Assembly (NCBI GenBank): GCA_028277085.1
Contig: JANQHL010000170.1
Location: 1-38,989, forward strand
Reading direction: 5' to 3'
DNA: 38,989 bases
DNA from: Flavobacteriaceae bacterium
GTDB lineage: Bacteria > Bacteroidota > Bacteroidia > Flavobacteriales > Flavobacteriaceae
Shown: piece after piece, positions 1 through 36,646 of the stretch
Layout: the number at the start of each line of letters is the position of its first letter
Position numbering within the stretch: position 1 is the first letter of the stretch
Made by a program: the position numbers and the translations under genes
Notes under the pieces: generated by a model
What the model saw: the letters and a program-made list of their open reading frames with translations, nothing else
What the model was told of the DNA's origin: nothing
The model's database searches: none

Positions 1-724
1 TTTGGTTGAAGGCATTGCTGTTTGTTCCTGGAGCTAAAAGTGCATACACACTTGAGCTATTACTGTACCACGCAATATCATCCGGATCTCTGTATTTAAG
101 AAAAGTCTTGTAAGGTAAGATAAAGTCGAATTGCTGGGAAGAGTTGTGCGGTATCTCAAAAATTCCAGATATGGTAAAAACCGCATCAATTTCTTCTCCA
201 GCTTCTTTAATCCTGAGGGTTTTTCCGATAGGGTCAACCCGCTCTCCAAAAAAACTGGCTGCCAATTCACGCGAAATGACCACGGAATTCACTTCAGCTA
301 AGGCGGTATTTTTATCCCCAGAAAGTAAAGGGTACGAAAAGACCTTAAAAAAATCTGCGCTGGCCATTACACCAAAGGCACTCAATTTTTTGTCCTTGGT
401 TTCCAAGCTAGCGCTATTGTCAAATTCATAAACCGCAGTCGCCAATTCCACTTCTGGAACTTCCTCCTGTAAAGCAGTAAGCATTAGGCTGGAGTTAGAA
501 GAAAAAGTGGCTAATTCTCCCGGGGCTACAGTCACATTTCTACGCACTTGATACAGCCGCTCATCGTGTTCATGAAACGTATCCATTGCAAGTTCATCCG
601 ATACCCAGAGGTATACAAGCAGTACACAGGCCATACCCGATGACAACCCTACCAGGTTGATGAAAAAGGTACTCTTGTGTTTTTGGATTTTCCTTAAATA
701 CAATACAATATTGTGCTTAAACAT
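1..724 (-). CDS. FtsX/MacB-type ABC permease (permease 1), N-terminal part; C-terminus truncated by window edge
   Basis: Read from the reverse strand: ATG at 724-722 gives MFKHNIVLYLRKIQKHKSTFFINLVGLSSGMACVLLVYLWVSDELAMDTFHEHDERLYQV..., open to base 1; same N-terminal TM1/MacB ectodomain layout as the other permeases. Absent from the ORF track, presumably because no stop lies in the window. Confidence 0.85.
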   Translation of the reverse strand, partial: MFKHNIVLYLRKIQKHKSTFFINLVGLSSGMACVLLVYLWVSDELAMDTFHEHDERLYQVRRNVTVAPGELATFSSNSSLMLTALQEEVPEVELATAVYEFDNSASLETKDKKLSAFGVMASADFFKVFSYPLLSGDKNTALAEVNSVVISRELAASFFGERVDPIGKTLRIKEAGEEIDAVFTISGIFEIPHNSSQQFDFILPYKTFLKYRDPDDIAWYSNSSSVYALLAPGTNSNAFNQ

Positions 725-8102: not shown

Positions 8103-10499
8103 TTATTCGGTTCGTAAACTTCTTACCGGGTTCGATTTTGCTGTTTTAAGCGCTTGAAAGCTTACGGTGATCACAGTTACAAACAAAGCCCCAAAAATGG
8201 CTGCTGCATAAATTGACCAAGACAGGTCAATCCTGTAGGAATAGTTCTGTAACCATTCGCTCATCACATAGGAAGCAATTGGTACGGCCATCAAGCAGGA
8301 AATTAGGATTAAGACTACAAAGTCTTTAGACAGCAGTTTCCAAACGTTCATTGCTGTGGCGCCTAAAACCTTTCGTATTCCTATTTCCTTTGTTCTACGT
8401 TCTGCAACATACGCCGCTAACCCGAAGAGTCCAAGGCAGCTGATAAAAATGGCAAGCGCGGTAAAAACCCCTGCTAAATCAGCAATACGTTCCTCAGATT
8501 GAAACTTTACTGCATATTGATCGTCCACAAATTGATAATCAAAAGGCAGGTTGGGGAAATGCCGTTTAAATATGGTCTCAACTGCTGCAAGATTTTCAGC
8601 AGTGCTCTTTTGTGGATTTAACCTGAGATTATAAAAATTAGCGACACCAAATTTATCAAAGGCATACACACCTTGTGTCACAGGTTCAAATGGGGATTGC
8701 ACAACAACATCTTCTATTACTCCAATGATTTTCAAAGGAGGATTCGGATTTTCAACATTGGTATCCCTTAAGTATTTGCCTATGGGATTAGTGAAGCCCA
8801 TATATTTCATGGCTGCCTTATTGATTAGCACGGTATTGGAATCTGTTGCCATTTCCCTGGAGAAATCCCTTCCCATAATGATGTCCAGATCAAGAGAACT
8901 TGCATATTCCGGGGAAACCAGGGTAAAAGCTAAACTCACTTGAAAATCCTCAGGTTTCCCATCCCAGGTAAAACTACCAGTCCTTGACCATATTTCGGTT
9001 GTTGGCGCACTGGAGGTAGACATCTCAGTAACTGCCCGGGATGCAATGAGTTCACTTCGCATAATGTCTTTTTTTAAGGCGAACTCAGGACCAGTAGCCG
9101 GGAGCTGAATTAGCCCTTCCTTGTCGTATCCAATGGGGCGGTTCTTGGCAAAACGGATTTGTTGAAGCACCACAAGGGTTCCTATGATGAAAGCGACTGA
9201 GGCTGTAAATTGTACCACTACCAAGACCTTCCGTGGCAGTATGGAAAGTGGCCCAAACTTAAGAGTGCCTTTTAGGGCTTCTACTGGTTTAAATGACGAA
9301 AGGTAGAGCGCCGGATAGCTTCCGGAGAGCAGGGCAGTAATGGAAACAAAAACTAGTGAAGCTATCCAAAATAAAGTGTTGTACAACGGAAATTGCATCT
9401 CTTTTCGTGACAGTTCGTTAAAGTCTCCCAGGAAAACCAAAACCAGAATTATTGCTAGCAGGAAGGACACCAGCGTCACCAAAAAGGCTTCTCCTAGGAA
9501 CTGATTTATCAAATGCCCCCTATTGGAACCGATGGTTTTTCGAAGCCCAACTTCTTTGGCCCTTTTTTCCGAACGCGCTGTGCTAAGGTTCATAAAATTG
9601 ATACAGGCCAGTATTAATACAAGAATGCCTATTATGGCAAATAATCTTACGTAAGTTATACGCCCTCCAGCCTGGCGGCCCTCTTCAAAATTATTTCGCA
9701 GATACCAATCCTTCATAGGAAATAAGAAAAGTTCAGGATTGCTTTGAGCTTCAGGGAGTTGATTCTTCTTGGCGTCTTTGATTTTGGTGGTGACCTCTTC
9801 CATGGTCATGTTATCAGCAAGCTGTACCAATAGCTGAAACGAGTTGTTATTCCAATCATCTCTTGCCGCTGTCACCCATTCACGCCAGGCCACGTAGCGT
9901 TCCCATGGTATTAAAAAGCCAAGTCCGTGGAAGGAGTTATTGAAAGGGATATCCTCATAAACTCCTGTCACGGTTGCATCAAATTCGTTATTCACTCGAA
10001 CGACTTTTCCAATGGGATCTCCTGATCCAAACAATGCCAAAGCAGTGGATTGATCCAACATAATGGCATCGATGTCCTGAAGGCCGTTTTGTTGGCCATG
10101 TATCATTCTGAGATCTAACATTTGCGTGATACCAGCTTGTACGGAATTCCCAACTCGCGAAATGATTTTATCTTCGAAGGCAAGGCTTTGTGTCCACTCC
10201 CAAGAAGCCATTACAATATGCTTGAAAAGATCACCGTACTGCTCCCGGAGTACAAATTCTAAGGGCCTCGGAACAGCATTTCCGGTTTCGATGACACCAT
10301 TTCTTGTCCGATTTTGATAAACCTGTGCAATTTGACCCTTATTTTCAAAGTACTGATCGTAGGTCACCTCGTCGGCAACCCATAGTCCGATCAATAGTGC
10401 AACGGCCATCCCAATCGCTAATCCCCCGATGTTGATGAAGGAAAACAGTTTGTTCTTTTTAAGACTCCGCAGGGCAATCTTTAAATAATTTCTTACCAT
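8103..10499 (-). CDS. FtsX/MacB-type ABC permease (permease 5)
   Basis: 798 aa; KEVGLRKTIGS and KEIGIRKVLGAT; C-terminal NPVRSLRTE. Confidence 0.93.
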   Translation of the reverse strand: MVRNYLKIALRSLKKNKLFSFINIGGLAIGMAVALLIGLWVADEVTYDQYFENKGQIAQVYQNRTRNGVIETGNAVPRPLEFVLREQYGDLFKHIVMASWEWTQSLAFEDKIISRVGNSVQAGITQMLDLRMIHGQQNGLQDIDAIMLDQSTALALFGSGDPIGKVVRVNNEFDATVTGVYEDIPFNNSFHGLGFLIPWERYVAWREWVTAARDDWNNNSFQLLVQLADNMTMEEVTTKIKDAKKNQLPEAQSNPELFLFPMKDWYLRNNFEEGRQAGGRITYVRLFAIIGILVLILACINFMNLSTARSEKRAKEVGLRKTIGSNRGHLINQFLGEAFLVTLVSFLLAIILVLVFLGDFNELSRKEMQFPLYNTLFWIASLVFVSITALLSGSYPALYLSSFKPVEALKGTLKFGPLSILPRKVLVVVQFTASVAFIIGTLVVLQQIRFAKNRPIGYDKEGLIQLPATGPEFALKKDIMRSELIASRAVTEMSTSSAPTTEIWSRTGSFTWDGKPEDFQVSLAFTLVSPEYASSLDLDIIMGRDFSREMATDSNTVLINKAAMKYMGFTNPIGKYLRDTNVENPNPPLKIIGVIEDVVVQSPFEPVTQGVYAFDKFGVANFYNLRLNPQKSTAENLAAVETIFKRHFPNLPFDYQFVDDQYAVKFQSEERIADLAGVFTALAIFISCLGLFGLAAYVAERRTKEIGIRKVLGATAMNVWKLLSKDFVVLILISCLMAVPIASYVMSEWLQNYSYRIDLSWSIYAAAIFGALFVTVITVSFQALKTAKSNPVRSLRTE

Positions 10500-29992: not shown

Positions 29993-30688
29993 CTATACCA
30001 TAGCACCCATTGCTCTGTTCTGACTTTCTGTAACAACTTGACCATCAAATAGATTGACTATCCTATGAGCGTAATGAGAATCCCGGTCCGAGTGGGTTAC
30101 CATAACAATTGTAGTCCCTTCCTGGTTTAGCTCGGTCAATAGGTTCATTACCTCAATTCCATTTTTGGAATCCAAGTTTCCGGTAGGCTCATCCGCTAAG
30201 ATCAATTTAGGAGTAGTTACCACAGCACGGGAAATTGCCACACGTTGCTGCTGTCCCCCTGAAAGCTGTTGCGGAAAGTGTTTTTGTCGGTGCGCAATTT
30301 TCATGCGCTCCAACACCGCCATTACTTTTTCCCTACGCTCCTTTTTACCCATTTTAAGATAGATCAGGGGCAACTCAACATTTTCATAGACCGTTAGTTC
30401 ATCTATTAGGTTAAAACTTTGAAATACAAAGCCGAGATTTCCTTTGCGAAGTTGTGTGCGTTGACTTTCCCTTAATCCCGCCACTTCATGGCCTGCGAAA
30501 ATATAGCTGCCTTCAGTAGGATTATCCAACATACCAATGATGTTTAACAAGGTGGATTTCCCACAACCTGAAGGCCCCATAACGGCAACAAATTCTCCCT
30601 GCTCCACAGTAAGGTTTACATTGTTTAAGGCCAATGTTTCTACTTCTTCGGTTCTAAAACTCTTTTTTAGATTTTTAATCTGTATCAT
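29993..30688 (-). CDS. ABC transporter ATP-binding protein, MacB/LolD family
   Basis: 231 aa; Walker A GPSGCGKST, signature LSGGQQQR, Walker B LILADEPTGNLD, H-loop VTHS. Confidence 0.96.
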   Translation of the reverse strand: MIQIKNLKKSFRTEEVETLALNNVNLTVEQGEFVAVMGPSGCGKSTLLNIIGMLDNPTEGSYIFAGHEVAGLRESQRTQLRKGNLGFVFQSFNLIDELTVYENVELPLIYLKMGKKERREKVMAVLERMKIAHRQKHFPQQLSGGQQQRVAISRAVVTTPKLILADEPTGNLDSKNGIEVMNLLTELNQEGTTIVMVTHSDRDSHYAHRIVNLFDGQVVTESQNRAMGAMV

Positions 30689-30699
30689 TTTTGATTGAT

Positions 30700-31950
30700 T
30701 TATTTTAAGACAATTCGTTCTGCTTCTCCAAAGCTGTCATAGTTGGAGGTGATTACTTGTTCTCCGGGCTGCAGCCCGTCCAGGACTTCGTAATACCTGG
30801 AGTTTTGTTTTCCGATACGGATGTTACGTTTAAGGGCTTCGCTCCCGTTGGAATTTACCACAAAGACCCATTGGCCTCCTGTGCTTTGAAAAAAACCACC
30901 TTTGGGCAACAACAAGGCGTCATTAGATGCACCCAGTTGCAATCGGATGTTATAGGTCTGTCCGGTTCGTATGGTCGCAGGCCTGTTTTCTGTAAATACA
31001 AGATCTACTTGAAACCTACCGTTCCGTACTTCCGGATATACCTTGCGCACCCGGAGGGGATAAATAGAATCGTTTCGTTCCAAAACCGCAGTCAAATCCC
31101 TTTTCACACGATCTATATAATGCTCATCTATCGCAGCCTCTATTTTAAAATCAGTTAACACATTGATCTGACCTATGCGTTGTCCCTGACCGATATTCTG
31201 TCCAATTTCCGCATCTAAAAAGCCCAACTGTCCATCTGCAGGAGCTCTTACGTTAAGGTGGTCCAAGCGTTCATACACCATGGCCAGGGTTTTTTTCATA
31301 CGTTCCAGGTCTGTATCTAGTCCGGCCAATGACGTTTTCCGAAGCGCATCGTCCTGTTCGGTCTGTAGTTTCACAATTTCGTACTGCTTTTGTGATAACT
31401 CATAGTTTTCCTTTGAGACTAAATACACCTCTTTCGAGATCAGTTCATCTTCGTAAAGCGCTTGGTTTTGCTCATAATTCCGCTTAGTACGCTTTAGATC
31501 GTTTTCGGCCGTGGCCAGATTTCTTCGGCCGTCTACCTGTCGGGAATCAAAATTCAAACGTGTTGAGCGGAGATCATTTTGCTTTAATGCAAGATTACTT
31601 TCGCTTTGCAAAATTTGCTCGTAGAGGACGCTGTTTTCCAGGGTGAGGATGATTTCCCCTTTTTTGACCATCGCCCCTTCTTCAATACGTTTTTCCGTAA
31701 CCCTTCCTCCTTCATAGGCATCCATATAGATGGTGGAGATAGGAGCAACAGAGCCGTTGATGGTGATATAGTCGTCAAATTTCCCATCAACAACCGCAGC
31801 AATAGACAGCTTTTCCTTATCTGTTCTGAAGGTGGATACTGATGTAGCAAAAAGGAGTTTCCAGCCCACAAAGAGTAACAGAATACCCAGCGCGATGTAC
31901 CCGTAATGTTTTGGGCGTAATCCTTTTTTCTTTTCTAGTTGTATATCCAT
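30700..31950 (-). CDS. HlyD/MacA-type periplasmic adaptor (membrane-fusion protein)
   Basis: 416 aa; short cytoplasmic N-terminus, single TM (YGYIALGILLLFVGWKLLF), lipoyl-like half-motifs, long coiled coil, beta-barrel region (IRTGQTYNIRLQL). Confidence 0.9.
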   Translation of the reverse strand: MDIQLEKKKGLRPKHYGYIALGILLLFVGWKLLFATSVSTFRTDKEKLSIAAVVDGKFDDYITINGSVAPISTIYMDAYEGGRVTEKRIEEGAMVKKGEIILTLENSVLYEQILQSESNLALKQNDLRSTRLNFDSRQVDGRRNLATAENDLKRTKRNYEQNQALYEDELISKEVYLVSKENYELSQKQYEIVKLQTEQDDALRKTSLAGLDTDLERMKKTLAMVYERLDHLNVRAPADGQLGFLDAEIGQNIGQGQRIGQINVLTDFKIEAAIDEHYIDRVKRDLTAVLERNDSIYPLRVRKVYPEVRNGRFQVDLVFTENRPATIRTGQTYNIRLQLGASNDALLLPKGGFFQSTGGQWVFVVNSNGSEALKRNIRIGKQNSRYYEVLDGLQPGEQVITSNYDSFGEAERIVLK

Positions 31951-31951
31951 T

Positions 31952-33295
31952 TTAGTTAATATTAAATATGGGTAGGCCCTTATAAAAATCCAGTGTACTG
32001 ATATTTACCCGCAATCGCAATTGTGCCTGTAAATTCTGGTTTTGGGCTGTTGCAAAAAGATTTTTAGCCTGACCTAGTTCAATAGCATTTATCATTCCCT
32101 TCTCATACCGTTTTTGAGCGATAGAAAAGGCAATCTCCTGTGAGGTGACCTGCTTTAGTGTCTGTGCTGTTTCTGCCCTTAGGGCATCATTTTCCTGTAC
32201 CAATTGTTGGATGATCTGATACAACTCCTGTTCTTGTATGCGCTCGTTGTTTTTAGCCCGCTCTACTGCTATTTTTTGTTGTTTCACCCGAGATCTGGAG
32301 GCCCAACCATTAAAGATGGGCATGTTTAATCTAGCACCAATAAACCGGAAGGTGTTGTCCCGAATCTGATCCCGGAAGGGAATGGTAACCCCCAAGGTGT
32401 CCGTAATGGTTTCGAAGTATCCAGTTCCAATACCTCCCTGAAGCGTTATTGAAGGATATAAACTGCCTCTTGTAACCGCTAACTGCTTTTTTGCAGCACT
32501 TACTCGATATTTCTGTGCTTTAACAGAAGGCATAAAACCCTTGGCTACATTGAAAACAGAATCCGCCTCCATGGTTTCCCAGGAAATCCCACTTTCAATT
32601 GCAACTATTTCTGGCTGAATGGAAATATCGCTTTCGCCAACAATGTTCATGGCCTGAAGCAAAACAAGCTTTGCGGCCTTTAGTCTATTTTCGTTTTGGG
32701 TAAGGAGTAATTCATCCGCTAACAACAGGGACTCCGCTTCATAAAGATCTGCCCCAGCCATTACCCCAAGCTCCACTTGTTTTGAAACCAGGTTGTAATT
32801 GGTTTGAGAAATAGCAACTTGTTCTTCCGAAATTGTAATAAGCCCCTTTATAAATTGAATGTCATAATAGGCAGACATAACTTGAAAGGCCAGCAGGAAC
32901 TTCTGTTGCAAACTTTCTTCCTTAGTCGCTTTATACAGGAGTTTGGAGGCTTTGATGCTATTTAGTTTTTGAAAACCTTGAAAAAGATCAAAAGAGGAAT
33001 TCAAATTATAGTTGTTAGAGAAAAACTCTGTGTTTACGAAGCTGTTATCTTCAGGGTTAATCGAACGCCCAAAATTAATAGAGTAATCTGCGGAGCCGTT
33101 TATGATAGGCAATAGATTCCGTACAGATTGCCGATACGTTTCTTTATTGGACTGGGTGTTAAAGTCAAAATCATTTAGCTGTAGGTTGTGATCTATAGCA
33201 TAATGGATACATTCCTCCAATGTCCAGATTTTCTGGGAAGAAACAGTAATGGTAGTTAAAATCAGTAAGGATAAAATATATTTTCTTAATCGCAT
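31952..33295 (-). CDS. TolC-family outer-membrane efflux protein
   Basis: 447 aa; signal peptide MRLRKYILSLLILTTITVSSQ, then WTLEECIHYAIDHN and repeated heptad helices typical of OEP family. Confidence 0.92.
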   Translation of the reverse strand: MRLRKYILSLLILTTITVSSQKIWTLEECIHYAIDHNLQLNDFDFNTQSNKETYRQSVRNLLPIINGSADYSINFGRSINPEDNSFVNTEFFSNNYNLNSSFDLFQGFQKLNSIKASKLLYKATKEESLQQKFLLAFQVMSAYYDIQFIKGLITISEEQVAISQTNYNLVSKQVELGVMAGADLYEAESLLLADELLLTQNENRLKAAKLVLLQAMNIVGESDISIQPEIVAIESGISWETMEADSVFNVAKGFMPSVKAQKYRVSAAKKQLAVTRGSLYPSITLQGGIGTGYFETITDTLGVTIPFRDQIRDNTFRFIGARLNMPIFNGWASRSRVKQQKIAVERAKNNERIQEQELYQIIQQLVQENDALRAETAQTLKQVTSQEIAFSIAQKRYEKGMINAIELGQAKNLFATAQNQNLQAQLRLRVNISTLDFYKGLPIFNIN

Positions 33296-33310
33296 AGTAT
33301 TTTACTATGC
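33292..33310 (-). repeat. Perfect inverted repeat GCATAGTA-(3 nt)-TACTATGC spanning the tolC-like start codon
   Basis: Plus strand gcatagta ttt tactatgc; ATG of the outer-membrane gene (33295-33293) lies in one arm. Confidence 0.8.
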
Positions 33311-33319
33311 CAAAAAATT

Positions 33320-33335
33320 AGCCATGACCATGCCA
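33320..33335 (-). promoter_or_regulatory. Candidate sigma54 (-24/-12) promoter for the tolC-like operon
   Basis: Minus strand reads TGGCATG-GTCA-TGGCT against consensus TGGCACG-N4-TTGCW: invariant GG and GC at correct spacing, 2 mismatches; 24 nt upstream of the start codon. Confidence 0.6.
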
Positions 33336-33382
33336 CAAAGTTAATGCACTGAAAAACAATAAATTATAAACAAAACTGCAAC

Positions 33383-33438
33383 ATAACACAAGTACAGGTG
33401 TAAAATATTTATACAAAAAGTGTAAAATTATTTAACAC
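33383..33438. promoter_or_regulatory. Candidate enhancer (UAS) cluster for the NtrC-type regulator
   Basis: GTGTAAAAT at 33398-33406 and 33420-33428 (22-bp period) plus inverted ATAACAC (33383-33389) and TTTAACAC (33431-33438). Confidence 0.4.
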
Positions 33439-33487
33439 CAAAAGTGGGTCATGGTCATGAAATTGTAGTTTTATCGAAAAGAAAGGC

Positions 33488-34852
33488 ATGGTTAACGCCA
33501 AAATTTTGATCGTAGATGATAATAAAAGTGTGTTGAGTGCTTTGGAAATCTTATTGCAATTCGAGTATCAAAATGTACTAACCATTTTTAATCCCAATCA
33601 GATTTCCTCTTACTCCGATATGAATGAGGTGGATATTGTGCTTTTAGATATGAATTTCTCTGCAGGGGTGAATTCCGGTAATGAAGGATTGTTCTGGTTG
33701 AATGAAATAAAGAAAAAATCACCGAATACTTCCGTTATAATGATGACTGCTTATGGTGCTGTTGACCTGGCAGTGAAGGCCTTAAAACAAGGGGCTGCTG
33801 ACTTTATTCTAAAGCCCTGGAATAATGAACGATTGCTGGCTACTGTACGATCGGCCTATGAGCTAAGAAGATCAAAGCAAGAGATCAATCAACTTCGTGA
33901 GCAAGAAAGTAATTTGAAGCAGGTTATTAATGAAGATAAGAATTACATTATCGGCAATTCAAAGGCCATTACGGCTGTGCTGAATTTAGTGCGAAAAGTG
34001 GCGAAGACAGATGTAAATGTTCTCATCACCGGAGAAAATGGAACAGGCAAAGAATTGATTGCAAGAGAACTGCATCGTCTTTCCCGCCGAAAGAATGAGG
34101 TGTTTATTGGCGTAGACATGGGGGCTATAGCGGAAAATTTGTTTGAAAGCGAGCTCTTTGGGCATTTGAAAGGTGCTTTTACCGATGCCAAGGAAGACAG
34201 GGCAGGGAAATTTGAGGCGGCGAATCGGGGGTCCCTCTTTTTGGATGAGATCGGAAATCTCTCGCTACCAATGCAGGCCAAACTGCTGTCAGCCATTCAA
34301 AATAAAGCTGTGGTTAGGGTGGGGTCAAATAAATCCGTTCAGGTAGATATCCGTTTGATTTGTGCTACCAACTGTAATTTAGAACAAATGGTAGCGGATG
34401 GGCTTTTTCGAGAAGACTTGTTGTATCGTATAAATACCATTCATATTGAAGTACCTCCGCTCCGGGAACGGGAGGGGGACATCCTGTTGCTTGCCGAATT
34501 CTTTTTGAAGCGATTCGGGCAGAAATATGACAAACCAGGGCTTAGGATCAACAATCCTGCACTGGAAAAAATGATGGAATATTCCTGGCCGGGAAATATC
34601 AGGGAATTACAGCACACTATGGAACGTGCTGTAATTCTCTCAGAAGGAAATGTTTTAAAGCCTGTAGATTTTCCTTTCCATGCTAAACCTATTCAGTCAT
34701 TATCCACCGAGATGGTTACGCTGGATGAAATGGAACACCATATGATTACCAGGGCACTTGCCCTTCACGACGGGAATTATACAGCCGCAGCGGAACAACT
34801 GGGGGTGTCCCGACAAACACTTTACAACAAACTGAAGAAGTTTAAAAACTAG
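33488..34852 (+). CDS. sigma54-dependent response regulator, NtrC family (receiver - AAA+ - Fis-type HTH)
   Basis: 454 aa; receiver ILIVDDN...LLDMNF...KPW, Walker A GENGTGKE, GAFTDA (GAFTGA position), FLDEIGNLSLPMQAKLL, C-terminal NYTAAAEQLGVSRQTLYNKLKKF. Confidence 0.95.
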   Translation: MVNAKILIVDDNKSVLSALEILLQFEYQNVLTIFNPNQISSYSDMNEVDIVLLDMNFSAGVNSGNEGLFWLNEIKKKSPNTSVIMMTAYGAVDLAVKALKQGAADFILKPWNNERLLATVRSAYELRRSKQEINQLREQESNLKQVINEDKNYIIGNSKAITAVLNLVRKVAKTDVNVLITGENGTGKELIARELHRLSRRKNEVFIGVDMGAIAENLFESELFGHLKGAFTDAKEDRAGKFEAANRGSLFLDEIGNLSLPMQAKLLSAIQNKAVVRVGSNKSVQVDIRLICATNCNLEQMVADGLFREDLLYRINTIHIEVPPLREREGDILLLAEFFLKRFGQKYDKPGLRINNPALEKMMEYSWPGNIRELQHTMERAVILSEGNVLKPVDFPFHAKPIQSLSTEMVTLDEMEHHMITRALALHDGNYTAAAEQLGVSRQTLYNKLKKFKN

Positions 34853-36195
34853 TGGCAAGCAGAAATTTTTACATCCGTTTGATTGTACAGGTGCTATTGT
34901 TAACCCTAACCACTGTGGTTTTGGGGTTCGCGGTTGTAAATAGGTGGTACCTTGTATTTTTCCTTGCGCTTATTTTGCTTGTCGCTCAGGTATACTCGCT
35001 CATTACCTTTATTAATAGCACTAACCGTAAAATAGCCTACTTTTTCGATGCGATAAAGAATGAGGATTTTACATTGAGATTCCCGGAAAAAGTTTCAATA
35101 AAATCGTTCAAAGAACTTAACAAAAGTTTGAATAGGGTCAATGGTCTTATCCAGGAAGTTCATCTTCAGTTGCAGATTCGGGAAAGATATTACCAGGAAA
35201 TCATAAAACAGGCAAAAATTGGTATTATGACCTATAACGAAAGGGGACATATCCTTTTTGCCAACCCTACCTTGGAACGAATTTTAAATTACCACCCCTT
35301 AAATCATATCAAACAACTACGGCAAATAAATGAAAATCTGTATGAGGTATTTGCTTCTTTTCAACCTTTTGAAAGAAAGCTATTCCAGTTGACCAACGAG
35401 CGAGAGCAGATACAGTTGGCATTAAAATCAACCGCCATTGTTTTGGATGAAAAGCCCCTGTTATTAGTGGTGGTACAAGATATTAAGCAAGAACTTGATG
35501 AAAAAGAGACGGATTCCTGGATTCGGTTAATTCGTGTTTTAACACATGAGATCATGAATACTATCACCCCGATTACCTCCATATCCGAGTCCATTCTTAA
35601 ATATTACCACACCCGTGAGGGTAAGGTAGTGGAACAATTGGATACGGAAAAGATTTTAAGTGCCTCCAGGGGATTAGAGGTAATCCAAAAACAAGGCAAT
35701 GATCTTATGGATTTTGTCCAATCGTATCGCAGCTTTCTTAATGTCCCCAAACCTGACAGAAAAATTGTCAGCGCCAAAAAGCTTCTGGACAAGGTTAAAG
35801 TACTTATGGGAAGGGATTCGGAAAGCACGCTTCAGCTTTTTTGGAGTTGTGATCCGGAGGATCTGGAGCTTTTTATTGATGAAAAGCAGTTAACACAAAT
35901 TTTGATAAACCTTGTCAAAAATGCGATACAATCTTTAGGGAATAGCGAGAACGGGTTGGTAGCAGTAACGGCAGCTATCGATGGTAACGGACGTAAGTAT
36001 ATAGAGGTTAAAGATAATGGGCCGGGTATTCCTGAACATCTGGCGGATGAAATATTTGTACCGTTTTTTACGACCAAAGAAGGAGGGACCGGGATAGGCC
36101 TTAGTCTATCCAGGCAGATCATGCAGCGGCATGGGGGGAGCTTAAAAATGTTCTCCATTCCAGATGTCGAAACTTCTTTTACCTTAACTTTTTAA
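34852..36195 (+). CDS. Sensor histidine kinase (two N-terminal TMs, PAS-like, HisKA/HATPase)
   Basis: 447 aa; GTG start overlaps the regulator TAG stop by 1 nt; H-box LTHEIMNTITPI, N-box NLVKNAIQSLG, DNGPGIP, GGTGIGLSLS. Confidence 0.93.
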   Translation: MASRNFYIRLIVQVLLLTLTTVVLGFAVVNRWYLVFFLALILLVAQVYSLITFINSTNRKIAYFFDAIKNEDFTLRFPEKVSIKSFKELNKSLNRVNGLIQEVHLQLQIRERYYQEIIKQAKIGIMTYNERGHILFANPTLERILNYHPLNHIKQLRQINENLYEVFASFQPFERKLFQLTNEREQIQLALKSTAIVLDEKPLLLVVVQDIKQELDEKETDSWIRLIRVLTHEIMNTITPITSISESILKYYHTREGKVVEQLDTEKILSASRGLEVIQKQGNDLMDFVQSYRSFLNVPKPDRKIVSAKKLLDKVKVLMGRDSESTLQLFWSCDPEDLELFIDEKQLTQILINLVKNAIQSLGNSENGLVAVTAAIDGNGRKYIEVKDNGPGIPEHLADEIFVPFFTTKEGGTGIGLSLSRQIMQRHGGSLKMFSIPDVETSFTLTF

Positions 36196-36202
36196 GGAGT
36201 TT

Positions 36203-36646
36203 ATGAAAGATGAGGTCTATGCGTTCTGCCAGGAGTTTGTAAACGACAAGCTTACCATGATTCAGGATCAGATCGGGAGAATCCGAGAATCTCTGGATTC
36301 CGAATCCAAAAATACTGCCGGTGATAAGCATGAGACGGGTAGGGCCATGCTACAATTGGAACGTGAGAAACTTGGGAAACAGCTCCATGAAGCGGAAAAG
36401 ATGAAACGGGCGCTCCAAAAAGTTATACTGAAAAAAAGCGGAGAGACGATTGCCATTGGAAGCCTGGTGGAAACCGAGAACGCCTATTATTTTATTGCCA
36501 TTTCTGCTGGAAAATTCAGTACCCATCAAACCGCAGTATACTGTATTTCATCACTAACCCCGTTGGCGCAACTTTTCCTCGGCAAGAAGGAGGGCGACTG
36601 CGTGAGGTTTAACGAGCAGGAACATCGGATTGTAAAGATTTTGTAA
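36203..36646 (+). CDS. Small GreA/GreB-like protein (coiled-coil N-terminus plus Gre C-terminal-like domain)
   Basis: 147 aa; GDKHETGRAMLQLEREKLGKQLHEAEKMK coiled coil, then a beta-rich region like the Gre C-domain (SLVETENAYYFIAISAG...PLAQLFLGKKEGD); aaggag SD overlaps the kinase stop. Confidence 0.5.
   Translation: MKDEVYAFCQEFVNDKLTMIQDQIGRIRESLDSESKNTAGDKHETGRAMLQLEREKLGKQLHEAEKMKRALQKVILKKSGETIAIGSLVETENAYYFIAISAGKFSTHQTAVYCISSLTPLAQLFLGKKEGDCVRFNEQEHRIVKIL

Follow-up and report, generated by a model that had tools for sequence, protein, structure and literature searches.

An RpoN promoter with an enhancer probably switches on an exporter operon in a Flavobacteriaceae bacterium and, in its relatives, also many scattered permease genes

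How is a long array of exporter genes switched on, and does the same signal serve the regulator gene lying back to back with it? This question is raised by the region between two divergent genes in the genome of a Flavobacteriaceae bacterium (assembly GCA_028277085.1, contig JANQHL010000170.1). The window, i.e., the whole stretch of DNA analysed here, comprises 38,989 nucleotides, and the features discussed are collected in Table 1. The initial annotation had drawn attention to a 10-mer, CATGGTCATG, placed symmetrically before both genes, and had proposed a σ54 promoter for the array, probably controlled by the neighbouring σ54 activator. From sequence comparison we propose that the intergenic region is an enhancer-dependent σ54 control region aimed at the exporter array and operated through looping by the kinase/regulator pair, a reading to which we assign a probability of about 0.88.

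The exporter operon starts with a TolC-like channel gene and continues through the adaptor and the ATPase to a series of duplicated permeases. A partial 13th permease (5–664, minus strand) is cut by the edge of the window and the contig, so the array is longer than seen. The nearest NCBIfam models for the ATPase, the adaptor and the permeases score 301 bits (DarD), 194 (DarC), 308 (ADOP) and 172 (DarB), the respective curated cut-offs being 375, 450, 622 and 700. Membership in the darobactin-type exporters was considered and rejected, as the best or near-best models all fall under their cut-offs; the proteins are homologous to these exporters and not members of them. A guess from the protein families is that peptides or toxic amphiphiles are exported when the envelope is under stress.

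Table 1. Features of the window, in order of position; functional names of DNA elements are predictions.
Feature	Position	Strand	Basis or remark
12 duplicated MacB_PCD/FtsX permeases, ~800 aa each	819–29963	−	ORFs and Pfam
ABC ATPase	29993–30688	−	Nearest curated model DarD
HlyD-type periplasmic adaptor	30700–31950	−	Nearest curated model DarC
TolC-like outer-membrane channel, leading gene of the operon	31952–33295	−	Pfam OEP
Second −24-like box TTTGGCATAG	33305–33314	−	At the predicted start site
σ54 −24/−12 element TGGCATG-GTCA-TGGCT	33320–33335	−	1 mismatch to TGGCAYR-N4-TTGCW
CATGGTCATG, operon-side copy	33323–33332	−	Overlaps the σ54 element; conservation limited to σ54 letters
25-bp IHF-like palindrome	33342–33366		WATCARNNNNTTR; both orientations, 1 mismatch each
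Candidate enhancer (UAS), two 17-bp palindromes TGT-N11-ACA	33399–33437		Conserved pair, 22 bp apart
UAS palindrome 1, TGTAAAATATTTATACA	33399–33415		
UAS palindrome 2, TGTAAAATTATTTAACA	33421–33437		
CATGGTCATG, regulator-side copy	33450–33459	+	No conserved function
σA-like −7 box TAGTTTTA of the regulator gene	33466–33473	+	
NtrC-type response regulator	33488–34852	+	REC, σ54 AAA+ with GAFTDA loop, Fis HTH
Sensor histidine kinase	34852–36195	+	Pfam PAS, HATPase; H-box THEIMNTITPI present

The putative σ54 element before the tolC-like gene has both the −24 GG and the −12 GC, and its geometry predicts transcription of the tolC-led operon from 33309/33310, in agreement with the start near 33309 expected in the initial annotation. 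When eight orthologous intergenic regions of the genus are aligned, the operon side keeps TGGCAYR and T.GCW, with a variable spacer of four letters between them. The element is conserved from the genus to Bacteroidales in most of the 80 relatives compared: a match with at most two mismatches is present on the operon strand in 66 of them vs. 21 on the opposite strand, the mean in shuffles being 3.4 mismatches. The C of the −12 GC is retained in just 30 of 104 non-redundant promoters. RpoN is encoded in the window's genome, and in Flavobacterium psychrophilum σ54 −24/−12 promoters are experimentally established according to the accessible part of that report (PMC9723704). Conservation in genus and family thus backs the proposal of a σ54 promoter for the array.

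Two further features lie close to the predicted start. GGCAY, the core of the second −24-like box, occurs 23 nt past the −24 GG in 36 of the 104 promoters (0.05 expected); in the form TTTGGCAYA the box is common at Flavobacteriaceae tolC promoters, and none of the inspected promoters of dispersed permeases has it. A perfect 8-bp hairpin spanning the tolC start codon (33292–33310) is not retained in relatives. As a regulatory element this hairpin was rejected; it folds at −9.3 kcal/mol from 33310, its z is only −1.1 when folding begins at 33309, and it is weak among relatives.

The strongest conserved feature between the two divergent genes is the pair of TGT-N11-ACA palindromes, which the initial annotation had missed and which is likely the binding site of the regulator. 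Scored over ten positions per site, or 20 per pair, it shows at most four deviations in 74 of the 81 loci, compared with 4 of 243 shuffled sequences, and in nearly all relatives it sits between the divergent genes. In the window's genome the single-site pattern is near-unique, with three matches of which two form this pair. The arrangement fits an enhancer for Fis-type regulator dimers, because two dimers would be placed about two helical turns apart. Here the pair lies ~84 bp upstream of the −24 GG and about 110 bp upstream of the start. Among the 104 non-redundant promoters the distance from the enhancer centre to the −24 GG is either 71–74.5 bp (17 promoters) or 82.5–85.5 bp (87), and none falls between 74.5 and 82.5 bp within the search window of 68.5–88.5 bp. 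These classes are one helical turn apart, which is the spacing to be expected of a regulator that has to face the polymerase. To the short class belong the sites of diverged regulators and internal array promoters. What the sequences hold is a conserved upstream palindrome, phased with the promoter and co-occurring with an activator, as would be expected of a UAS.

In the same 104 promoters a palindrome with the consensus YAAN4YTGATWATCARN4TTR occupies a fixed place between enhancer and promoter. The IHF consensus is WATCARN4TTR. Allowing at most one mismatch, the halves of the palindrome match it in 55 of the 104 promoters on one strand and in 61 on the other (shuffled mean 0.4), and judged by this consensus from general knowledge the palindrome has the sequence of an IHF site. 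The genome search returned two genes of the HU/IHF family, both under the IHF equivalog cut-offs and neither a clear IHF subunit. It is plausible that a homodimeric IHF-like protein bends the DNA at the palindrome.

On the other side of the intergenic region, the regulator exceeds the cut-offs of Pfam PF00072, PF00158 and PF02954, i.e., it has the domains of the NtrC type, and its σ54 AAA+ domain is intact. The σ54-contact loop reads GAFTDA here rather than GAFTGA, and G[AS]FTDA is found in 76 of the 80 relatives; GAFTDA is among the functional variants listed for Desulfovibrio (PMC4641369). This loop and the weakly retained −12 C might be linked. Past the kinase gene a small protein is encoded (36203–36646, plus strand) with a sub-threshold match to the GreA/GreB C-terminal domain. 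A σ54 promoter before the regulator gene, for which a weak alignment had been offered earlier, was rejected: no conserved σ54 site precedes this gene in the compared relatives, and a σA-like −7 box is found instead. The TTGTA of the alignment is part of a conserved AATTTGTAGNTTTA box that can be read as a σA −7 element. Of 57 Flavobacteriaceae loci, 34 have GTAGNTTT 28–44 nt before the ATG (expected 0.0), and the conserved box GTAGNTTTA equals, except for its last letter, the flavobacterial σA −7 element, which is given as TAnnTTTG in the accessible part of the mapping study (PMC9723704).

Most genomes of the genus have several copies of the UAS pair. A composite search, in which the pair had to be followed by TGGCA 48–68 bp downstream, gave up to seven matches per genome of the genus, the reversed-pattern controls giving 0 or 1. 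As many as 28 of the 34 distinct readings precede the operon tolC or ~800-aa MacB/FtsX permeases, either array-internal or far off; the remaining six comprise readings of the same palindrome from the opposite strand, one site at the edge of a fetched stretch, and sites without the −12 half. Across 151 Flavobacteriaceae genomes the intergenic matches of this class lie mostly before tolC or permease genes and in one case before an ATPase gene, while chance composite matches fall mainly within coding sequence. One genome holds eight scattered permeases with the module, plus three sites without an identified downstream gene. When the regulator clade is defined by identity above 60%, sites are found in 16 of the 19 Flavobacteriaceae genomes with the clade vs. 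0 of the 132 without it (Fisher 6e-19, kinship ignored); two of the three site-less clade genomes have a near-miss at the regulator locus, and the third case is at a contig end. Diverged regulators (about 45–50% identity, different recognition helix) have TGTTCG- or TGTATC-like UAS beside their own exporter genes, which ties the UAS sequence to the regulator type. It is this comparison that brings out the elements, their conservation and phasing, their co-occurrence with the regulator clade and the genes downstream, and that supports the adjacent activator as the probable regulator of the array.

Some variation in the layout was seen as well. Eight loci of a diverged regulator clade carry a TGTATCAAAATCGAACA-like UAS with the same σ54 layout, usually before the gene for an HlyD-type adaptor. 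An array in another genome (G005) has 13 permeases, a second ABC ATPase at its end and an internal module of UAS and σ54 element after ten permeases in transcription order. In the window's genome, no further module was found inside the array or before other permeases; the full module occurs at this operon only, and a half-match on another contig has a weak σ54 alignment.

What, then, of the 10-mer? Both intergenic copies of CATGGTCATG were found again where they had been reported, directly preceded by GTGG (GTGGGT on the plus strand) and 28 and 27 nt from the start codons of the regulator (ATG at 33488) and the tolC-like gene (ATG at 33295), and a third exact copy lies at 9801, within a permease gene. 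Only 0.14 copies are expected in the whole window, and three were reached in no shuffle. When the 192-bp intergenic region is shuffled, 0.6% of trials yield an inverted repeat of 10 bp whose two arms lie no more than 45 nt from opposite ends, and 2.4% yield one anywhere across the two halves. The inverted pair is somewhat unusual by chance, and conservation is decisive. A symmetric operator, at which the regulator or another factor would act on both sides and coordinate both genes, would account for an exact inverted pair so close to both start codons and so seldom met in shuffles. However, the search of orthologous loci that had been suggested as a check covered 80 relatives, ranging from Allomuricauda and Flagellimonas to Bacteroidales, and the 10-mer was found on neither side in any of them. 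In the closest sister, with 97% identity in the regulator, the sequence is CATAGCGATG before the regulator gene, no longer an intact 10-mer, and CACGGTCATG before the operon. The σ54 element alone accounts for the operon-side conservation; this copy lies within a predicted σ54 promoter that is well supported, and the rest of it is variable spacer. The idea of a functional motif shared by both sides was therefore dropped, since the 10-mer is conserved on neither; an operator of this kind has next to no probability, and the repeat is mostly a coincidence.

Two other explanations accept the conserved elements and assign them differently. A σA promoter close to the start codon could drive the array, the σ54-like element being incidental; the AT-rich leader, a TTTG-containing box near the start and the poor conservation of the −12 C would all suit such a promoter. 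We nevertheless consider it extremely unlikely, because the −24/−12 letters and the fixed enhancer phasing recur before dozens of positionally unrelated permease genes. Alternatively, the palindrome pair could mainly serve the regulator gene by activating or repressing its σA promoter, with the array driven otherwise: ~40 bp separate the end of the UAS (33437) from the inferred regulator start downstream of it, and the place of the UAS between the two genes is kept in nearly all relatives. It is the distance from the UAS to the σ54 element that is fixed, in two phased classes, whereas that to the regulator gene varies with insertions, and the dispersed copies precede permeases, where the regulator gene is not the target. 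This alternative is thus very unlikely, and σ54 control of the array from the enhancer stays the preferred reading; autoregulation besides array control is possible.

In this σ54 reading, the NtrC-type regulator would be phosphorylated by the kinase, and its dimers would occupy both palindromes of the UAS and assemble there. An IHF/HU-type protein would bend the intervening DNA at the IHF-like palindrome, bringing the AAA+ ring into contact with Eσ54 at TGGCATG-N4-TGGCT, where the promoter would be opened. Transcription would then run from near 33309/33310 through tolC, the adaptor, the ATPase and at least 12 permeases, while the regulator/kinase pair would be transcribed oppositely from its σA-type promoter. 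We infer phosphorylation, binding, bending, looping and σ54 dependence from the arrangement of the elements. In relatives, where the module stands before scattered permease genes, the regulator would command a permease-family regulon.

A bolder proposal, held tentatively and at somewhat under even odds, is that a whole permease family answers to one σ54 activator as its master switch. This activator would turn on a shared ATPase-adaptor-TolC core along with duplicated permeases, a dozen in tandem and many scattered, each with the helically phased module and the symmetric IHF-like bend. The core operon would also have the second −24-like box at its start site, and a single energy source would serve interchangeable permeases expressed together with it. 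One switch, and perhaps one ATPase, common to scattered permeases is a directly testable idea. In practical terms, the composite enhancer-promoter pattern locates targets in unannotated genomes, and σ54 control of Bacteroidota FtsX-type exporters, for which there were earlier promoter statistics only, gains a proposed activator, enhancer and target list.

Control of a σ54 promoter by an NtrC-type regulator acting from an enhancer is textbook knowledge. The locus resembles such promoters, as generally known, in the pair of palindromes that forms the UAS some 110 bp ahead of the start, the bend site in between, the −24/−12 element and the adjacent REC-AAA+-Fis regulator with its kinase. It differs from them in its targets, an exporter operon and scattered permeases, and in the symmetric double IHF-like bend, the weakly kept −12 C and the GAFTDA/GSFTDA loop. 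The darobactin exporter DarBCD and the ADOP duplicated permeases supply the nearest curated models for ATPase, adaptor and permease; unlike there, one ATPase here goes with at least 12 permeases. The σ54 (SM4) promoters of F. psychrophilum, from the same bacterial family, were mapped at −24/−12 by 5′-end sequencing; in the accessible part of the report their targets concern envelope stress, protein quality control and gliding and not this exporter array, and, unlike here, activator and enhancer are not assigned (PMC9723704). A search of the literature, with most subscription journals outside its coverage, found no earlier account of the regulator-enhancer-permease unit. Closest is a 2025 survey, the accessible part of which reports that FtsX-like permease genes (COG0577) of Bacteroidia are enriched in predicted σ54 promoters upstream and calls this the first evidence for the link (PMC12316311). 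The same link between σ54 and the permease family is reached there from statistical promoter enrichment, and that part of the survey gives no activator, enhancer, phasing or gene set (PMC12316311). To this the present comparison would add a candidate activator, its enhancer, a phased architecture and dispersed targets.
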